A DNA stretch of 22,204 nucleotides from positions 1-22,204 of IMG/VR virus record IMGVR_UViG_3300017753_000126; one strand, given 5' to 3'. Below the pieces are notes generated by a model. That model was not told the DNA's origin. It made no database searches and worked only from the letters and a program-made list of their open reading frames with translations. The position numbers and the translations under genes are program-made. The DNA is from a virus. This document shows positions 1 through 21,016 of this stretch, piece after piece (positions within the stretch are counted from its first letter, which is position 1; each line of letters begins with the position of its first letter).

Positions 1-210
1 CAAGGAAAACAAGGTATAACAGGTAATCAAGGTACTCAAGGAAGACAAGGTACTCAAGGTAAACAAGGTACAATTGGTCTTAGTGTAACAGGTGCACAGG
101 GTATTCAAGGAAAACAAGGTATAACAGGTAATCAAGGTATTCAAGGAAGACAAGGTACTCAAGGTAAACAAGGTACAATTGGTCTTAGTGTAACAGGTGC
201 ACAGGGTACT
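1..210 (+). repeat. Two tandem 105-bp repeats inside the collagen-like fibre gene
   Basis: Positions 1-105 and 106-210 are direct repeats differing at only two bases that I can see. Each unit encodes 35 residues of Gly-X-Y sequence including the block GTIGLSVTGAQG. The array may extend upstream of the window. Confidence 0.9.
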
Positions 211-984
211 CAAGGTAAACAAGGTACTATAGGAGCATTAGGAGATACAGGTATTCAAGGTATTCAAGGTAAACAAGGTAAAATTGGTACAACAGGTACA
301 ACAGGTAATCAGGGTACTCAAGGTAAACAAGGTACTATTGGTACAACAGGTACAACAGGTAATCAGGGTACTCAAGGAAGACAAGGTACTATTGGTACAA
401 CAGGTACAACAGGTAACCAGGGTACTCAAGGTAGACAAGGTACTATTGGTACAACAGGTACAACAGGTAATCAAGGTACTCAAGGTACTATTGGCCCAGT
501 AGCAGGTTCAAATACTGAAGTTATTTTTAATAATAGTGGAGTTGCAGGAGCATCAGCTGAATTTACTTTTACTACGGGTACAGGATTAGTAACTGCTCAA
601 AGATTAAATGTTGGATCATCAGCTGGAACAAATGGTACAGATGGTTTAATTAGAGCTGCAAATGATGTAATTGCATTTGCAACTTCAGATAAAAGATTAA
701 AAACTAATATATTACCAATACCAAACGCTTTAGATAAAGTAATAATGATGAATGGTGTTGAATTTGATTGGTTAGAATTTGAAGCTAATAAAACACAAGC
801 TATACATGCTAATAAAGGACATGATGTAGGTGTTATAGCACAAGAAATAGAAGCTATATTTCCAGAATTAGTTGATACAAGAGCTAATGGTTATAAAGCG
901 GTTAGATACGATAGATTAGTAGCTGTATTAATTGAAGCTGTTAAAGAACTTAATATTAAAATTAAAAATTTAGAAAATAAATAG
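1..984 (+). CDS. Collagen-like tail fibre with C-terminal Peptidase_S74 chaperone (5' truncated)
   Basis: The frame is open from the first base of the window to TAG at 984 (327 visible residues), so the N-terminus lies upstream. Residues 1 to about 167 are uninterrupted Gly-X-Y triplets rich in Gln, Thr and Lys, predicted to form a collagen-like triple-helical shaft. A short beta-rich segment follows, with the fibre motif around NTEVIFNNSGVAG. The C-terminus from about residue 229 is an S74 intramolecular chaperone. It has the conserved S-D-K-R-L-K start (Ser229 and Lys234 as the likely self-cleavage dyad), then GVEFDW, GVIAQEIE and the helical tail YDRLVAVLIEAVKEL. In this family the domain trimerises the fibre and then cuts itself off just before the Ser. 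The protein is probably a distal tail fibre or receptor-binding shaft. The next gene starts 3 nt downstream, suggesting co-translation. The S74 call is firm; which fibre of the virion it belongs to is not known. Confidence 0.88.
   Translation, partial: QGKQGITGNQGTQGRQGTQGKQGTIGLSVTGAQGIQGKQGITGNQGIQGRQGTQGKQGTIGLSVTGAQGTQGKQGTIGALGDTGIQGIQGKQGKIGTTGTTGNQGTQGKQGTIGTTGTTGNQGTQGRQGTIGTTGTTGNQGTQGRQGTIGTTGTTGNQGTQGTIGPVAGSNTEVIFNNSGVAGASAEFTFTTGTGLVTAQRLNVGSSAGTNGTDGLIRAANDVIAFATSDKRLKTNILPIPNALDKVIMMNGVEFDWLEFEANKTQAIHANKGHDVGVIAQEIEAIFPELVDTRANGYKAVRYDRLVAVLIEAVKELNIKIKNLENK
265..480 (+). repeat. Four tandem 54-bp repeats inside the collagen-like fibre gene
   Basis: Units begin at 265, 319, 373 and 427, with a partial fifth at 481. 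Each encodes 18 residues (six Gly-X-Y triplets) around TIGTTGTTGNQGTQG. Copies differ at a few bases only (for example GGTAAA versus GGAAGA or GGTAGA, and AAT versus AAC). The 54-bp period keeps both the reading frame and the triplet register, so copy-number change would lengthen or shorten the shaft without breaking the protein. Confidence 0.9.
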
Positions 985-986
985 TT

Positions 987-2714
987 ATGGCTTCAACATC
1001 ATTAACTTCAGCTTCTTTAAGTTCTTTAATCTTAACTAGAGGTTCAGTTACCGTAGCTAATAATTATGGATTAGAAGATGTATTTAATACTATAGGGGCA
1101 CAAGCAGCCCTTCCAGGTATTGCTGTAACTGGTAATTATGACTTAGATGATTTAAATGGGTTAGATAATTCATATGCTGCAAATAATTTCGCTACAGGTC
1201 ATTTTAGAACTCTTCAATCTCCTGCAGGTCAAGATGCTAATAGTAATATTTATTTTTGCAGTTATAATGGAAATTATGTAGCTAGAAGTTTTAAAAGTGG
1301 TACAACTACAATTTATAAAAATGGTTCATCAGCTGGAACAATTACTTCAGCAAGAGGTACTTTATCATTAAATTCATTAGTAGTTGGAGATAGAATATCT
1401 GGTGATAAACCTTTTGTTTTTTATCATAGTACAAATCCAGGTGTTCAAGGAGCTTATGGAGGATATATGGGTTATCAATTTGCTACAAGAATAGATAGAC
1501 GAACTATAACTTTTCATATTTTTAATTTAGATAGTGTTAATAGTACTTCATATGTTATATTATATACATCTACATCCGATGCAAATGTTACTTCTATGAC
1601 TTCAGTATCTTCAGGAACTATAACTGCAGGATCTTATGCTTCATATGGACCAACAGCTACTCAAGGAAATTATTATATTTTAACAAGTGGTTTAACTTGT
1701 TGTGTTCGTGGAGATTATCCATCGTCTGATGTTGTTATGATGTATCCTATGTCACAAGAAAATTTATATGGTTGGTTTTCTTCAAATGGTCATACTTTTT
1801 CAGTAAATAACGCAGAATGTGCAAGATTAGATTCAGGGGGAGGTGATGATATATTAGGCCGAGATGTTGATAATCAATCTACAACAATCATAGGCTCCTT
1901 AGGCACGGGTAATGGAAATACTTTTACTTCTGATGGTGTTTCTACAATAACAGGAGGAAATTATTTTAGTGGAGAAGCATCTGTTGTGTATAATTCATCC
2001 TTTGCAGGAACTGTTAGAGCTGGAACTATATTTGCAGCTGAATCACAAGGTGATGGTAATGGAACAGAAATGACATCATTTACATCAGCAACTGCTCATG
2101 GTAGAATGTGTGTAAGTGGTGGAGGTGCAGCTTGGAATGCTTTTGTAAAAGTAGGTTGGTCTGCATCTGGAGGAACAACTGCCTTAGTATATCCTGATTA
2201 TGGTGATGTAATAATGAGATTTAATTCTGCAGGAACTTTTCAAGAAGCACTACCTTTTAGTGGTAACAATACAACAGAACCTTACTTATCTTCAGCTTAT
2301 TTTGGAAACGGTTCAGGAACAGGAACATCAGCCAATGCTGGTGATTTTTTCCTATGCAATGTAGCAGTTCAAGGTTACCAAGATACAGATGCAAGTGATA
2401 AAGATGAAGCAAATATGATAATGACTAATGATGTTGACTCTATTACAGCAAATACTTATGTAATTTATGCACATACTGAAGAATTAGAAGGAGTAAGTAG
2501 TGCAACAGATGCTTGTAATGAAATAGGAACATCATATTCTCATGAAGTATATTCACCTGGTTCATTCGCTGATGGAAATGTAATTTTTAATGATGATGTA
2601 TTTTTTGAACCTTTTGGGGGTGGTACTAATTATTTTATATATTACTCTGGTAGAAGTAAGTTTAGTTTTCAATGTAGTGGTGAAGGAATAATATCAAATC
2701 TCGCTAGTTGTTAA
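987..2714 (+). CDS. Gly/Ser/Thr-rich virion protein, probable fibre-associated or adhesin protein
   Basis: A 575-residue protein with no family I can name with certainty. It is rich in Gly, Ser, Thr, Asn and Tyr and poor in Lys, and looks all-beta with many short strands and Gly-rich turns (for example SGGGDDILGRD and GNGSGTGTSANAG). This composition is typical of phage fibre tips, adhesins and decoration proteins. It has no signal peptide or membrane segment. It starts 3 nt after the S74 fibre gene behind an A-rich leader, and its TAA stop overlaps the ATG of the methyltransferase (TAATG). The position directly after a collagen-like S74 fibre suggests it attaches to, caps or works with that fibre. 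This role is inferred from composition and context only. Confidence 0.6.
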   Translation: MASTSLTSASLSSLILTRGSVTVANNYGLEDVFNTIGAQAALPGIAVTGNYDLDDLNGLDNSYAANNFATGHFRTLQSPAGQDANSNIYFCSYNGNYVARSFKSGTTTIYKNGSSAGTITSARGTLSLNSLVVGDRISGDKPFVFYHSTNPGVQGAYGGYMGYQFATRIDRRTITFHIFNLDSVNSTSYVILYTSTSDANVTSMTSVSSGTITAGSYASYGPTATQGNYYILTSGLTCCVRGDYPSSDVVMMYPMSQENLYGWFSSNGHTFSVNNAECARLDSGGGDDILGRDVDNQSTTIIGSLGTGNGNTFTSDGVSTITGGNYFSGEASVVYNSSFAGTVRAGTIFAAESQGDGNGTEMTSFTSATAHGRMCVSGGGAAWNAFVKVGWSASGGTTALVYPDYGDVIMRFNSAGTFQEALPFSGNNTTEPYLSSAYFGNGSGTGTSANAGDFFLCNVAVQGYQDTDASDKDEANMIMTNDVDSITANTYVIYAHTEELEGVSSATDACNEIGTSYSHEVYSPGSFADGNVIFNDDVFFEPFGGGTNYFIYYSGRSKFSFQCSGEGIISNLASC

Positions 2715-3271
2715 TGTATACTTTTTTAAAAGACAAAATTCTAGATGAAAGAAATCATGAAGTAATGATGGATTGGGAAACTCCTATTATGAAAGAACAT
2801 GCTAGAGTTGTAACTAAAAATGGAGGAGATATATTAGAAATAGGATTTGGAATGGGGATATGCTCTAGTTTTATACAACAAGCTAATATTAAATCTCATA
2901 CTATAATTGAAATACATAATCAAGTTTTTGATAGATTATTAGAATGGGCTAAAGATAAACCTAATGTTATTCCTATAAAAGGTGATTGGTTTAATAGTAT
3001 TCCAAATAAAAAATATGATGGTATAATGCATGATACTTGGGAAGATAAAAACTATCATAATTTTATTCCTATAGCTAAAAATCATTTAAAATCTAAAGGA
3101 ATAATAACTTATTATACTCCAACCCCAAAACAGATAATTGAAAATCAATTTAAAGATACTAACAGTAAATTAACAGTTACAAAAATTAATGTTAATCCTC
3201 CTACTAAAAATATGAATTATAAATATTTTGATAGAAAAGATTATTATTGTATTGAAATTGTTGTTGATTAG
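2714..3271 (+). CDS. GAMT/RMT2-like SAM-dependent methyltransferase
   Basis: A 185-residue class I SAM methyltransferase. I start it at the ATG that overlaps the previous stop codon (TAATG), not at the TTG six bases upstream. Motif I is ILEIGFGMG (residues 40-48). An acidic residue ends strand 2 (Glu66 in TIIEIHN). Motif II resembles VIPIKGDWF, and the post-I region is YDGIMHDTW (101-109). From memory, human guanidinoacetate N-methyltransferase carries ERWETPYM, VLEVGFGM, the phrase GVFQRL with DWA, VIPLKG and FDGILYDTY in the same order and spacing. The two GAMT acids that hold the guanidino group correspond to Glu22 (WETP) and Asp107 (HDT), both kept here. The family is reliable. The substrate could be a guanidino metabolite or a protein arginine (as for RMT2), possibly on a virion protein. 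The gene is coupled to fibre and structural genes. Confidence 0.85.
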   Translation: MYTFLKDKILDERNHEVMMDWETPIMKEHARVVTKNGGDILEIGFGMGICSSFIQQANIKSHTIIEIHNQVFDRLLEWAKDKPNVIPIKGDWFNSIPNKKYDGIMHDTWEDKNYHNFIPIAKNHLKSKGIITYYTPTPKQIIENQFKDTNSKLTVTKINVNPPTKNMNYKYFDRKDYYCIEIVVD

Positions 3272-3282
3272 ACGACTTTTTT
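3260..3282 (+). terminator. Weak candidate intrinsic terminator after the methyltransferase gene
   Basis: GTTGT (3260-3264) can pair with ACGAC (3272-3276), including one G-U pair, across a 7-nt loop, followed by six T at 3277-3282. The stem overlaps the stop codon. It is short, so this is tentative, but a late-type element follows within 3 nt, which fits an end-of-unit signal. Confidence 0.4.
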
Positions 3283-3284
3283 CT

Positions 3285-3300
3285 ATATTTATAATAAAAT
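3285..3300 (+). promoter_or_regulatory. Candidate late promoter element, upstream of gp13-like gene
   Basis: ATATTTATAATAAAAT, identical to the elements at 6365 and 10391. It begins 23 nt before the ATG at 3308. It contains TATAAT on the + strand, and TATTTATA, the reverse complement of the T4 late consensus TATAAATA. Confidence 0.6.
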
Positions 3301-3307
3301 TATAATT

Positions 3308-4465
3308 ATGGCTGTAATCCCAATTTATCCTGGTTCATCATCTTTTTTTCCTGGAGATACACCTTTTGGATTTTATGATAATCAATATGATTTCCAAACA
3401 GATGCTGATAGAGTAGTAACATATGTTGCAAGAAGATTAGGTTATCCTATAATGGATGTTGAATTACAAGATTTAAATTTTTATGCTGCATTTGAAGATG
3501 CAGTTACAACTTATGGTAATGAATTATACGCTTATAAAGTAAGAGAAAACTATTTATCTATTGAAGGATCCCCAACAGCATCTAATTTAAACCATGAATT
3601 AATAACTCCTAATTTTGCTAGTGTAGTAAGATACTCAGAACAATATGGAGAAGAAGCAGGTACTGGAGGTACTACAACTTGGTATTCAGGATCTATTCCT
3701 GTTACGGCTGGTCAACAAGATTATAATTTAAAAACATGGGCATCAGCTTCTTTGGGATTAGATAATAAAGATTTTATTGAAGTAAAAAGAGTATTTTTTG
3801 AAGCAACCCCAGCAATTGTTAAATTCTTTGATCCTTATGCTGGTACAGGTACAGGAATAATGAATATGATGGATTCTTTTGGATGGGGAAATTATTCTCC
3901 TGCAACTAATTTTTTATTAATGCCTCTTAATTTTGACATTGCAAAAATTCAAGCAATAGAAATGAGTGATACAGTTAGAAGATCACAATTTTCATTCGAA
4001 TTAATTAATAATAATTTAAGAATATTTCCAATACCTCAAAATAGTGGACATTTAAACATACAATATATAAAATTATCAGAAAGAAATGATCCTATATCAA
4101 AATATCCTAGAGGACAATATAATGTAACTAATGTTTCAAATGTTAATTATTGTAATCCTGATTATTGTCAGATAAATTCTATAGGTAGAAGTTGGATATT
4201 TGATTACACATTAGCTGTATGTAAAGAAATATTAGGATATATTAGGGGTAAATATTCACAAGTACCAATTCCTGGAGCAGAAACAACATTAAACCAACAA
4301 GATTTATTATCAGCTGCCTCAGATGAAAAATTAGCATTAATTACAAGATTAAGAGAATATTTTGATGAAACATCAAGAAGTAATTTATTAGCAGTTAAAG
4401 CAGCAGAGGCAGAATCGTTACAAAAAATAGAAGCAGCAGTACCTTACCCAATTTATATAGGATAA
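3308..4465 (+). CDS. 13: T4 gp13-like neck protein
   Basis: A 385-residue neck (head-tail connector) protein, longer than T4 gp13 (309 residues). The N-terminal part has the family pattern VTYVARRLGYPIMDVEL, then a helix ending in AFEDAVTTYGNELY (residues about 37-74), matching gp13's RRLG-PI-VEL and LELYGEY. The C-terminal part has a conserved helix, WIFDYTLAVCKEILG, and a hydrophobic end (YPIYIG) like gp13's. A long Ala/Glu-rich helix (about 325-375) precedes it. In T4, gp13 and gp14 form the neck that joins the portal to the tail. The gene follows a late-type element and is separated by 1 nt from the gp14-like gene. The order gp13-gp14-gp15 matches T4, which supports the call. Confidence 0.75.
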   Translation: MAVIPIYPGSSSFFPGDTPFGFYDNQYDFQTDADRVVTYVARRLGYPIMDVELQDLNFYAAFEDAVTTYGNELYAYKVRENYLSIEGSPTASNLNHELITPNFASVVRYSEQYGEEAGTGGTTTWYSGSIPVTAGQQDYNLKTWASASLGLDNKDFIEVKRVFFEATPAIVKFFDPYAGTGTGIMNMMDSFGWGNYSPATNFLLMPLNFDIAKIQAIEMSDTVRRSQFSFELINNNLRIFPIPQNSGHLNIQYIKLSERNDPISKYPRGQYNVTNVSNVNYCNPDYCQINSIGRSWIFDYTLAVCKEILGYIRGKYSQVPIPGAETTLNQQDLLSAASDEKLALITRLREYFDETSRSNLLAVKAAEAESLQKIEAAVPYPIYIG

Positions 4466-19756: not shown

Positions 19757-21016
19757 ATGTTTTGGTTAGTTGAAAGTAAAGTTCAATTTGAACAGTTTAC
19801 AAATGCTAATTGGGAAGAAGTTTTTATAGAAGTAATTCCAAATAGTTATTTAATACATCCTGCACAAAATAATATTTGCGCTTTGTATATTAGACCATTA
19901 TTATCAACTAAAGGATTTATTGTCCCACTATCACATAGTGAAACTTTAAATATAAATATAACGGAAATAAACACGATGTTACATAAATTTAGTAGCATAT
20001 ATGTGCGTGATAAGAAGGAATTTTTACATTATTTACCACTAAAAGGCCTCTTTGACATAAACCAACAAAACCCTCCGTATATACCAGAATTAACCCAAAC
20101 ACATCACATTTTTAATAGGAGATATCCTAATAAAAAAGACATAAATAGAATTATACCTATAGTTAAACATTATGAATATTGTGAAAAAATATATAATAAC
20201 CTTAAAGATAAAATAAATGAACAAATCAATGAATTCTACAATAATAAATCTTCAGTGGTTTTCAACGCCATTGAAAGAAATGGTATACGAGTTAATAGAG
20301 AAAAATTTGAATCGTACTTTCATGTTATCGACGGAGATTACGTCTACACGCAGTACAACTTTAAAACTCTTACAGGAAGACCAAGTAATAAATTTAAAGG
20401 AGTAAATTATGCCGCAATTAATAAAGAAAACAATAGTCGAGAAAGTTTTATACCCCGTAATGACATTTTTGTTGAGTTTGATATTGGGGCTTATCATCCT
20501 ACTTTGTTATCTAAGTTGGTTGACTTTGATTTTGGTAATGAGGATATTCATACTGCCTTTGCGAAAATGTATGGGGTTGAATATAAAAAAGCCAAAGAAT
20601 TAACATTTAAACAATTATATGGAGGAGTATTTGATCAATATAAAGATCTAGAATTTTTTAAAAAAGTTCAAGTATATACTGATAATTTATGGGAAGAGTT
20701 TAAAGAAAAGGGCTGGATTGAATGTCCTATTTCAAAACATAGGTTTATTAAAGAAAAAATAGGTGAAATGAAGCCTCAAAAATTATTAAATTATTTACTA
20801 CAAAACTTGGAAACCGCAATGAATGTTCATATATTGTGGGAAATAATTAAGTTATTAAGAAATAAAAAAACAAAAATAGTTTTATATACTTATGATTCGT
20901 TTTTATTTGATTTAGATAAAGAAGAAGAAGATGTGTTGGAAGAAATAAAAGAGCTATTTAATAAATATAAACTACAAATAAAAATATGCTATGGAAACGA
21001 TTACAATTTTAAATAA
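19757..21016 (+). CDS. Small family A DNA polymerase with degenerate exonuclease-like N-terminus
   Basis: A 419-residue protein with pol I-type motifs in order. TLTGRPSNKFKGVNYAAIN (205-223) corresponds to TGRLSS/PNLQNIP. FDIGAYHPTLLS (241-252) is motif A with Asp242. KKAKELTFKQLYGG (277-290) is motif B with Lys280, Phe284, Tyr288 and Gly289. NYLLQNLETAMN follows, then motif C YTYDSF with Asp380. Both metal-binding Asp are kept, but motif C is Y-D-S rather than H-D-E, and the motif B Arg position (four before Lys280) is Tyr276. Residues 1-130 resemble an RNase H-like 3'-5' exonuclease (HPAQNNICALYIRP, GFIVPLSH) but lack the D-x-E pair (IEVI instead). It is smaller than E. coli Klenow (about 600 residues). 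T4 itself uses a family B polymerase. A gp32-like gene lies nearby, consistent with a replication module. Confidence 0.8.
   Translation: MFWLVESKVQFEQFTNANWEEVFIEVIPNSYLIHPAQNNICALYIRPLLSTKGFIVPLSHSETLNINITEINTMLHKFSSIYVRDKKEFLHYLPLKGLFDINQQNPPYIPELTQTHHIFNRRYPNKKDINRIIPIVKHYEYCEKIYNNLKDKINEQINEFYNNKSSVVFNAIERNGIRVNREKFESYFHVIDGDYVYTQYNFKTLTGRPSNKFKGVNYAAINKENNSRESFIPRNDIFVEFDIGAYHPTLLSKLVDFDFGNEDIHTAFAKMYGVEYKKAKELTFKQLYGGVFDQYKDLEFFKKVQVYTDNLWEEFKEKGWIECPISKHRFIKEKIGEMKPQKLLNYLLQNLETAMNVHILWEIIKLLRNKKTKIVLYTYDSFLFDLDKEEEDVLEEIKELFNKYKLQIKICYGNDYNFK

Follow-up and report, generated by a model that had tools for sequence, protein, structure and literature searches.

The window analysed here, a stretch of 22,204 nucleotides covering positions 1 to 22,204 of the virus record IMGVR_UViG_3300017753_000126, encodes a 185-aa class I methyltransferase of the guanidinoacetate N-methyltransferase (GAMT)/RMT2 type, situated directly behind a fibre-like gene. 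We hypothesize that this gene encodes a phage protein-arginine methyltransferase acting on the adjacent virion protein, a reading to which we assign a probability of about 0.6. Since relatives of the enzyme, which many marine phages carry, are usually encoded directly behind fibre or fibre-associated genes, and an arginine of the neighbouring protein is often lost where the enzyme is missing, the function is probably virion arginine methylation and not creatine synthesis.

Similarity searches and structure comparison agree on the family of the enzyme. A phmmer search of PDB chains placed GAMT at ranks 1–4 (rat, E 5.3e-24 to 6.8e-24; human, 2.1e-22), with rat GAMT 1xcj as the best relative (E 5e-24) and the first non-GAMT match at E 0.011; with profile A1, built from 29 sequences, GAMT was matched at 7.8e-31 and the next family at 3.1e-5. 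AlphaFold modeling from a 29-sequence alignment gave a predicted local distance difference test (pLDDT) value of 94.8 and a predicted template modeling score of 0.90. A Foldseek search with this model returned GAMT chains at ranks 1–5 (best 7e-15; next 2.3e-8), and VIA-align superposed it on human GAMT over 181 of 185 residues (Z 23.8, root-mean-square deviation 2.0), the runner-up family being spermidine synthase (Z 16.0). Pfam and NCBIfam scans yielded generic methyltransferase matches, all below threshold, and the PHROGs scan gave no match to the enzyme. A preliminary description of this DNA, made from the letters alone, had recognized a GAMT pattern; its motifs are all found in the protein (WETP, LEIGFGM, VFDRLLEWA, VIPIKG and DGIMHDT), GAMT came first in both the profile search and the structure overlay with no unrelated family matching better, and what it stated on family, acidic residues, coordinates and operon position was borne out. 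Placement of the product of 2714–3271 in the GAMT/RMT2-type superfamily is confirmed on the basis of GAMT sequences and structures.

The phage enzyme shares with GAMT (PDB 1xcj, 1khh, 3orh) its sequence, its fold, the S-adenosylmethionine motif LE(I/V)GFGM and the equivalents of E45 and D134, but it lacks the residues before about position 23, no creatine pathway partner was found for it, and it is mostly encoded behind fibre-type genes. In GAMT, the N-terminal segment before about residue 23 helps to close the active site. Classical protein arginine methyltransferases (types I–III) combine a Rossmann domain with a beta-barrel and a dimerisation arm, whereas the GAMT domain spans the 185-aa model end to end and leaves no room for a barrel. 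RMT2 consists of a GAMT-like catalytic domain that acts on protein arginine, with a ribosomal substrate, and an ankyrin-type N-terminal part; the phage enzyme, in contrast, is the catalytic domain alone. According to the accessible text of two papers (PMC9017121, PMC4860837), yeast RMT2 is a type IV protein arginine methyltransferase, and the atom that it methylates is the arginine delta nitrogen.

Both guanidino-binding acids are kept, as the preliminary description had claimed: the phmmer alignment pairs E22 with rat E45, which we take to bind the guanidino group, and D107 with rat D134. Among 131 unique virus relatives with at least 100 aligned residues (identical and shorter sequences left out), the D107 equivalent is Asp in 131/131; at residue 22, three rows are gapped and the other 128 read Glu (125) or Asp (3). 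Neither E22 nor D107 lies inside the patterns of the two profile scans, D107 lies inside MHDTWEDK, one of six peptides in the first single-sequence scan, and the conservation of EWAKDKPN and LExGFGM was not counted as evidence since both peptides were search patterns. In the accessible part of PMC12471008, Asp134 is the proton acceptor of GAMT. After the fifth strand, the window enzyme reads TYYTPTP where rat GAMT reads TYCNLTS. This replacement, although 116 of the 131 virus relatives keep the GAMT-like Asn in that stretch, would suit a non-guanidino acceptor, such as a sugar, a lysine or a peptide C-terminus on the fibre or its glycan, with the acids inherited and used differently; a glycosyltransferase two genes downstream of the enzyme in locus L249 points the same way. 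Considering the invariance of D107, the near-invariance of E22 and the fact that it is specifically an arginine that varies in the partner proteins described below, we regard such an acceptor as very improbable.

IMG/VR searches confirmed 110 relatives in the single-sequence scan and 504 and 484 in the two profile scans; the best 80 loci were taken from each scan, and the locus counts refer to that sample. It comprises 127 unique virus loci. Eight of these break off upstream of the enzyme; in the remaining 119 the upstream gene can be read, and in two of them it lies on the opposite strand. In 95 of the 119, the upstream gene belongs to one of five fibre or fibre-adjacent sequence clusters: 44 FNPDNTW/S74-type fibres, 22 relatives of the 575-aa protein encoded upstream of the enzyme in the window, and 18, 7 and 4 proteins with a Gly-Arg tail, which are small or about 200 aa long. 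In the FNPDNTW/S74 group, L219 matches tail-fibre PHROGs at 1.7e-29, and L237, L227 and L213 do so weakly or not at all; the Gly-Arg-tailed clusters are called fibre-associated because, where read, they lie behind S74-type fibre genes. Same-strand gaps to the upstream gene measure at most 15 bp in 107 of 117 cases. The window itself agrees with the translational coupling between fibre and neck genes proposed earlier: the upstream stop codon overlaps the enzyme start codon in TAATG, a gene matching PHROG 211 follows, and by eye no Shine-Dalgarno-like stretch was seen just upstream of the enzyme ATG.

The first line of evidence for a substrate comes from the small Gly-tailed partners. In one enzyme clade, the upstream proteins belong to three sequence clusters and have a Gly-rich C-terminal stretch closed by Arg (GGGPGR, as in the small protein of L143, GGGFGGGR or SGGGGR). 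An IMG/VR scan with the cluster of about 105 aa alone retrieved 77 loci; the query alignment A3 lacked its last residue, the Arg, so the scan was unable to favour Arg. Tails were counted in 61 unique proteins whose genes are followed by 150 bases of sequence or more (identical and shorter-flanked copies left out; L306 gave no open reading frame). Terminal Arg is present in 23/23 enzyme-linked proteins, and the 38 enzyme-less ones comprise 18 with Gln, 13 with Arg, 4 fused to a Hint domain and 3 without a tail. The association of Arg or Gln with enzyme presence gave a Fisher p of 3.3e-6, and of 0.001 after thinning within classes at 90% identity (13:0 vs 7:10); in tree simulations of independent evolution with a similar number of Arg tips, all 23 enzyme-linked tips carried Arg in 1 of 1802 runs. 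Fourteen core columns do not vary among the enzyme-linked proteins; these columns, some of which lie inside search patterns and are hence kept by design, are retained at 76–100% in proteins without the enzyme, compared with 13/38 for the terminal Arg. The enzyme was not found elsewhere in the enzyme-less records (0/45; positive controls 5/5). A second Gly-tailed cluster (95–100 aa) carries both tail and enzyme in 9/9 loci and thus offers no contrast.

A start-site artefact, in which the Gly-Arg tail would reflect a Shine-Dalgarno sequence or an ATGA overlap, was considered and ruled out, because the Arg codon of enzyme-linked copies is AGA or CGA, the Gln codon CAA also permits ATGA, and genes that are set apart by a spacer instead of overlapping retain the tail. 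In the four Hint-fused copies (L297, L313, L314 and L316, at about 2995–3783 each), the Gly-tailed protein continues into a Gly-rich stretch, G-Q-L-C and an intein-like Hint domain, which ends in NVLVHSE without the final Asn and matches Pfam PT-HINT at 1.2e-6 in L314. Self-cleavage of this domain could generate nearly the same Gly-Gln C-terminus that a stop codon gives in other copies.

The second line of evidence concerns the 575-aa protein of the window. A relative, L099, matches a virion structural PHROG at 1.5e-10 and S74 below threshold, which together with gene position suggests a virion role. Scanning IMG/VR with the 575-aa protein and 12 relatives yielded 26 loci, some near-identical, of which 25 have downstream DNA. 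The enzyme is the next gene in 24 of these 25; the exception, L383, retains the same order without it, with the fibre-like gene followed by 47 bases and then the neck gene. Residue 556 is Arg in all 21 unique homologs that adjoin the enzyme (these number 17 at 90% identity and 10 at 70%) and Glu in the enzyme-less L383, a comparison that left out the cut locus L388 and identical sequences. Of 24 columns that are invariant in the enzyme-linked homologs and covered by L383, 23 are kept and only R556 is changed; with one deviation allowed, L383 keeps 37 of 40. Among other arginines, L383 keeps R411 (20/21) and R280 (18/20) and has changed R292 (17/20). The invariance of R556 had been listed in alignment A7 before L383 was read; no prediction was written beforehand. 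In the partner model, R556 lies in a turn between the strands 548–554 and 557–563, and a fold search with this model (mean pLDDT 51) gave no match at E 0.001 or better. The 123-aa upstream protein of L111 is otherwise different but has a similar end domain (GGRSG...SVTSC; weak profile match, E 0.0036), and the enzyme is again the next gene. The C-terminal Cys of the 575-aa partner was considered as a further feature and dropped, as S74-type members of the same clade lack it.

A different interpretation of such genes has been published. In the accessible part of a 2024 ocean survey (PMC11360552), GAMT (K00542) shows an 85.4-fold enrichment over microbial homologs, the greatest in the survey; the nine virus populations that carry it all come from the Arctic, and its proposed role is to supply creatine when oxygen is low. 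That 'GAMT' is probably the same virus enzyme family as ours, and the accessible text of the survey draws no link to a virion partner. The 'putative guanidinoacetate methyltransferase' A0A8D9CBY1 of an uncultured marine phage, which matches in fold, probably also belongs to the family. An auxiliary metabolic gene for a true GAMT, which would produce creatine or methylate another small guanidino compound in the infected cell, would agree with GAMT being the nearest family, with the retention of both acids and with the survey's ranking. Against it stand the absence of the GAMT N-terminal segment (model residue 1 aligns at GAMT residue 23–24), the position mostly behind fibre-type genes, and the arginine loss in the neighbouring protein, which a metabolite role does not predict. 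In addition, PF02274 (ADI), a family that we take to include amidinotransferases, was matched in 0/50 and 0/29 virus records, including records of 634, 232, 195 and 138 kb, and in 3/14 control genomes; the records may be fragments, and the host could supply the amidinotransferase. The creatine-kinase-type family PF00217 was matched in 0/50 virus records, and its control also lacked any match, so this search is uninformative. We consider a creatine role unlikely. Of the two substrates offered in the preliminary description, an arginine of a virion protein gained support from the neighbour covariation, and a small guanidino metabolite gained none.

The enzyme tree shows that partner type follows enzyme ancestry. 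The tree covers 118 virus and 10 cellular enzymes, loci cut upstream and enzymes shorter than 150 aa having been left out. The virus sequences fall together in a single clade (support 0.825), and partner type changes 10 times, compared with at least 64 times in 500 shuffles. The enzymes with Gly-Arg partners (29 of 30 members) form a single clade with support 0.965, as do the 23 window-type enzymes with support 0.976, L111 having been assigned to the latter by hand. Outside IMG/VR, one of 50,697 phage records contains a relative at E 0.01, namely LR745206 (634 kb, uncultured), in which the enzyme gene lies directly behind a fibre-like gene by eye. GTDB genomes contributed 51 loci with relatives, in 49 of which the enzyme reading frame was called; pattern reading of the Asp107 position gave His in 41, Asp in 6 and two off-pattern loci. 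One of these, L204, is a spurious match of 23 bits; the other, L154, reads MDT and resembles a phage contig, the gene upstream coding for a collagen-like fibre. The methyltransferases encoded in peptide-synthetase-type clusters of bacteria (most of L158–L203, many from Flavobacteriaceae) belong to the same superfamily, with about 31–46% identity over the matched part, but differ in having mostly His at the Asp107 position and, by eye and among the matches listed, large synthetase-like neighbours. Tandem methyltransferase paralogs occur in L058, L060 (670–1323 and 1299–1907), L062 (4316–5023 and 5001–5621) and L063, the first copy having Asp at the Glu22 position; by eye, a clamp-loader-like gene lies upstream of the tandem pair in L062.

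Several observations weigh against methylation of the adjacent virion protein. Three of the five upstream clusters have no known-family match and are fibre-associated by position only; a further 22 of the 119 upstream genes fall outside the five clusters, and 2 lie on the opposite strand. By eye, some copies adjoin replication-type genes (clamp-loader-like in L127 and L214; near a gp32-like gene in L077), and fibre cassettes can contain cargo genes without a fibre role. The tandem paralogs of L058, L060, L062 and L063, one copy of which has Asp at position 22, count on the same side. Among the small Gly-tailed proteins, 13/38 enzyme-less copies retain the terminal Arg, and thinning at 80% identity weakens the association to p 0.015 (8:0 vs 5:7). 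For the 575-aa family, 6 of the 24 invariant columns lie in the search pattern ESQ[GA]DG[ND]G and are kept by design, and the loss of R556 rests on one partial enzyme-less sequence (n = 1); a scan starting from L383 gave no second enzyme-less copy. The largest group, in which fibre cluster 0 is combined with a downstream protein of about 230 aa (38/127 loci), yielded no enzyme-less homologs and hence offers no contrast.

The copies beside replication-type genes, together with the glycosyltransferases and 2-oxoglutarate (2OG) oxygenases of some cassettes and the lysine and arginine methylation of phage and host proteins during infection (accessible part of PMC13288928), are also what would be expected if a non-adjacent protein were methylated, be it a different virion protein or a host protein of the cell surface or of translation, and if the linkage to fibres reflected co-transfer of host-range cassettes. 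This alternative leaves the neighbour-arginine covariation in two families unexplained, and we judge it quite unlikely.

According to the reading we favour, the enzyme would be a phage protein-arginine methyltransferase on a GAMT/RMT2 fold, translated together with its own substrate. The one-base overlap, together with the lack, by eye, of a separate ribosome site for the enzyme, suggests that the enzyme would be made in step with that substrate. S-adenosylmethionine would serve as methyl donor, and the Glu22/Asp107 pair would grip the guanidino group, with Asp107 accepting the proton as Asp134 does in GAMT. GAMT methylates a substituted guanidino nitrogen. If the enzyme works as GAMT and RMT2 do, methylation would take place at the inner (delta) nitrogen of arginine, and delta-N-methylarginine would be expected because GAMT acts on such a substituted nitrogen and RMT2 on the delta nitrogen. 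In the window clade, the target would be Arg556 in the hairpin turn of the C-terminal domain of the upstream protein, a specific assignment that we offer tentatively, at somewhat less than even odds; in the sister clade, it would be the C-terminal Arg of the small protein with the Gly-rich tail. Any consequence for adsorption or particle stability could plausibly arise through masking of charge on a receptor-facing tip or through shielding from proteases. The coordinates of these features are given in Table 1.

Table 1. Features of the window around the methyltransferase gene, with proposed roles where indicated.
Feature	Position	Strand	Basis
Collagen-like fibre, S74 chaperone domain at its C-terminus, truncated by the window start	1..984	+	Pfam Collagen 2e-22, Peptidase_S74 2.8e-16
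575-aa fibre-like protein, proposed substrate	987..2714	+	Behind the collagen/S74 fibre; virion role suggested by position and S74-bearing relatives
C-terminal domain of the 575-aa protein (residues 491–575), its best-predicted part	2457..2711	+	pLDDT block means 78–91
Codon of Arg556, proposed target, in a hairpin turn reading mostly G-R-[ST]	2652..2654	+	Homolog alignment
Stop/start overlap TAATG (one base) between 575-aa fibre-like gene and methyltransferase gene	2712..2716	+	Sequence
Methyltransferase gene, GAMT/RMT2-type class I, 185 aa	2714..3271	+	ATG start; open reading frame, sequence and fold matches
Codon of Glu22 (= rat GAMT Glu45)	2777..2779	+	phmmer alignment to rat GAMT
Codon of Asp107 (= rat GAMT Asp134)	3032..3034	+	phmmer alignment to rat GAMT
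Neck/head-tail adaptor gene, 36 bp downstream of the enzyme	3308..4465	+	PHROG 211, E 6.5e-11

In 44 loci, the gene that immediately follows the enzyme encodes the protein of about 230 aa (e.g., L241:6556–7239). This protein contains a GRGG motif, in which R and G are invariant in a 19-sequence alignment, and a literal RGG is present in 31 of the 44. A scan with a closer subset returned 7 loci, all on contigs already in the set, and 48/48 unique copies adjoin the enzyme, so that an enzyme-less control is missing and the motif is a lead only. When the phage records were queried with the partner proteins, the protein of about 230 aa included, no match was obtained (E limits 1, 0.01, 0.1 and 0.1).

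Other enzymes occur in these cassettes. A 2OG-Fe(II) oxygenase is encoded in L065 (4391–5008; 4.6e-12), its cluster filling 19 neighbour slots, and the glycosyltransferase of L249 (1666–4353; 2.3e-10) belongs to a cluster of 6 related genes, further ones having been recognized by eye; together they suggest that fibres are more widely decorated by enzymes. In L076, a 124-aa protein (3893–4267) encoded two genes ahead of the enzyme has, by eye, the look of a SET-domain lysine methyltransferase. In the window, behind the structural genes, a 419-aa reading frame (19757–21016) weakly matches DNA polymerase family A, below threshold (E 9e-4).

Arginine methylation of phage particles has been observed directly. 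In the accessible part of a 2026 study (PMC13288928), 84 lysine and arginine methylation events were found on 33 phage proteins in infected cells, and free virions carried, among others, dimethyl-Arg23 and Arg580 methylation of a putative tail fibre; none of its phages is described there as known to encode methyltransferases, and its table names one DNA methylase. If the present reading is true, it would supply a phage-encoded counterpart to the virion arginine methylation reported in that part of the study. Our literature searches, confined to listings of open-licence PMC papers, showed no phage enzyme that methylates arginine in virion proteins. As far as they extend, and if the reading holds, the window enzyme would be the first protein-arginine methyltransferase from a phage for which candidate target residues are named; the prediction is made at residue level. 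At about even odds, we further propose that marine phages encode dedicated enzyme–substrate pairs, in which enzyme and substrate are translationally joined, each enzyme clade modifies an exposed arginine of its own (in a hairpin in the window clade, at the end of a Gly tail in another), and loss of the enzyme is often accompanied by loss of that arginine. The 'creatine' gene of the ocean would then be a virion modification gene, and the most enriched virus gene of the survey would move from creatine metabolism to particle building.

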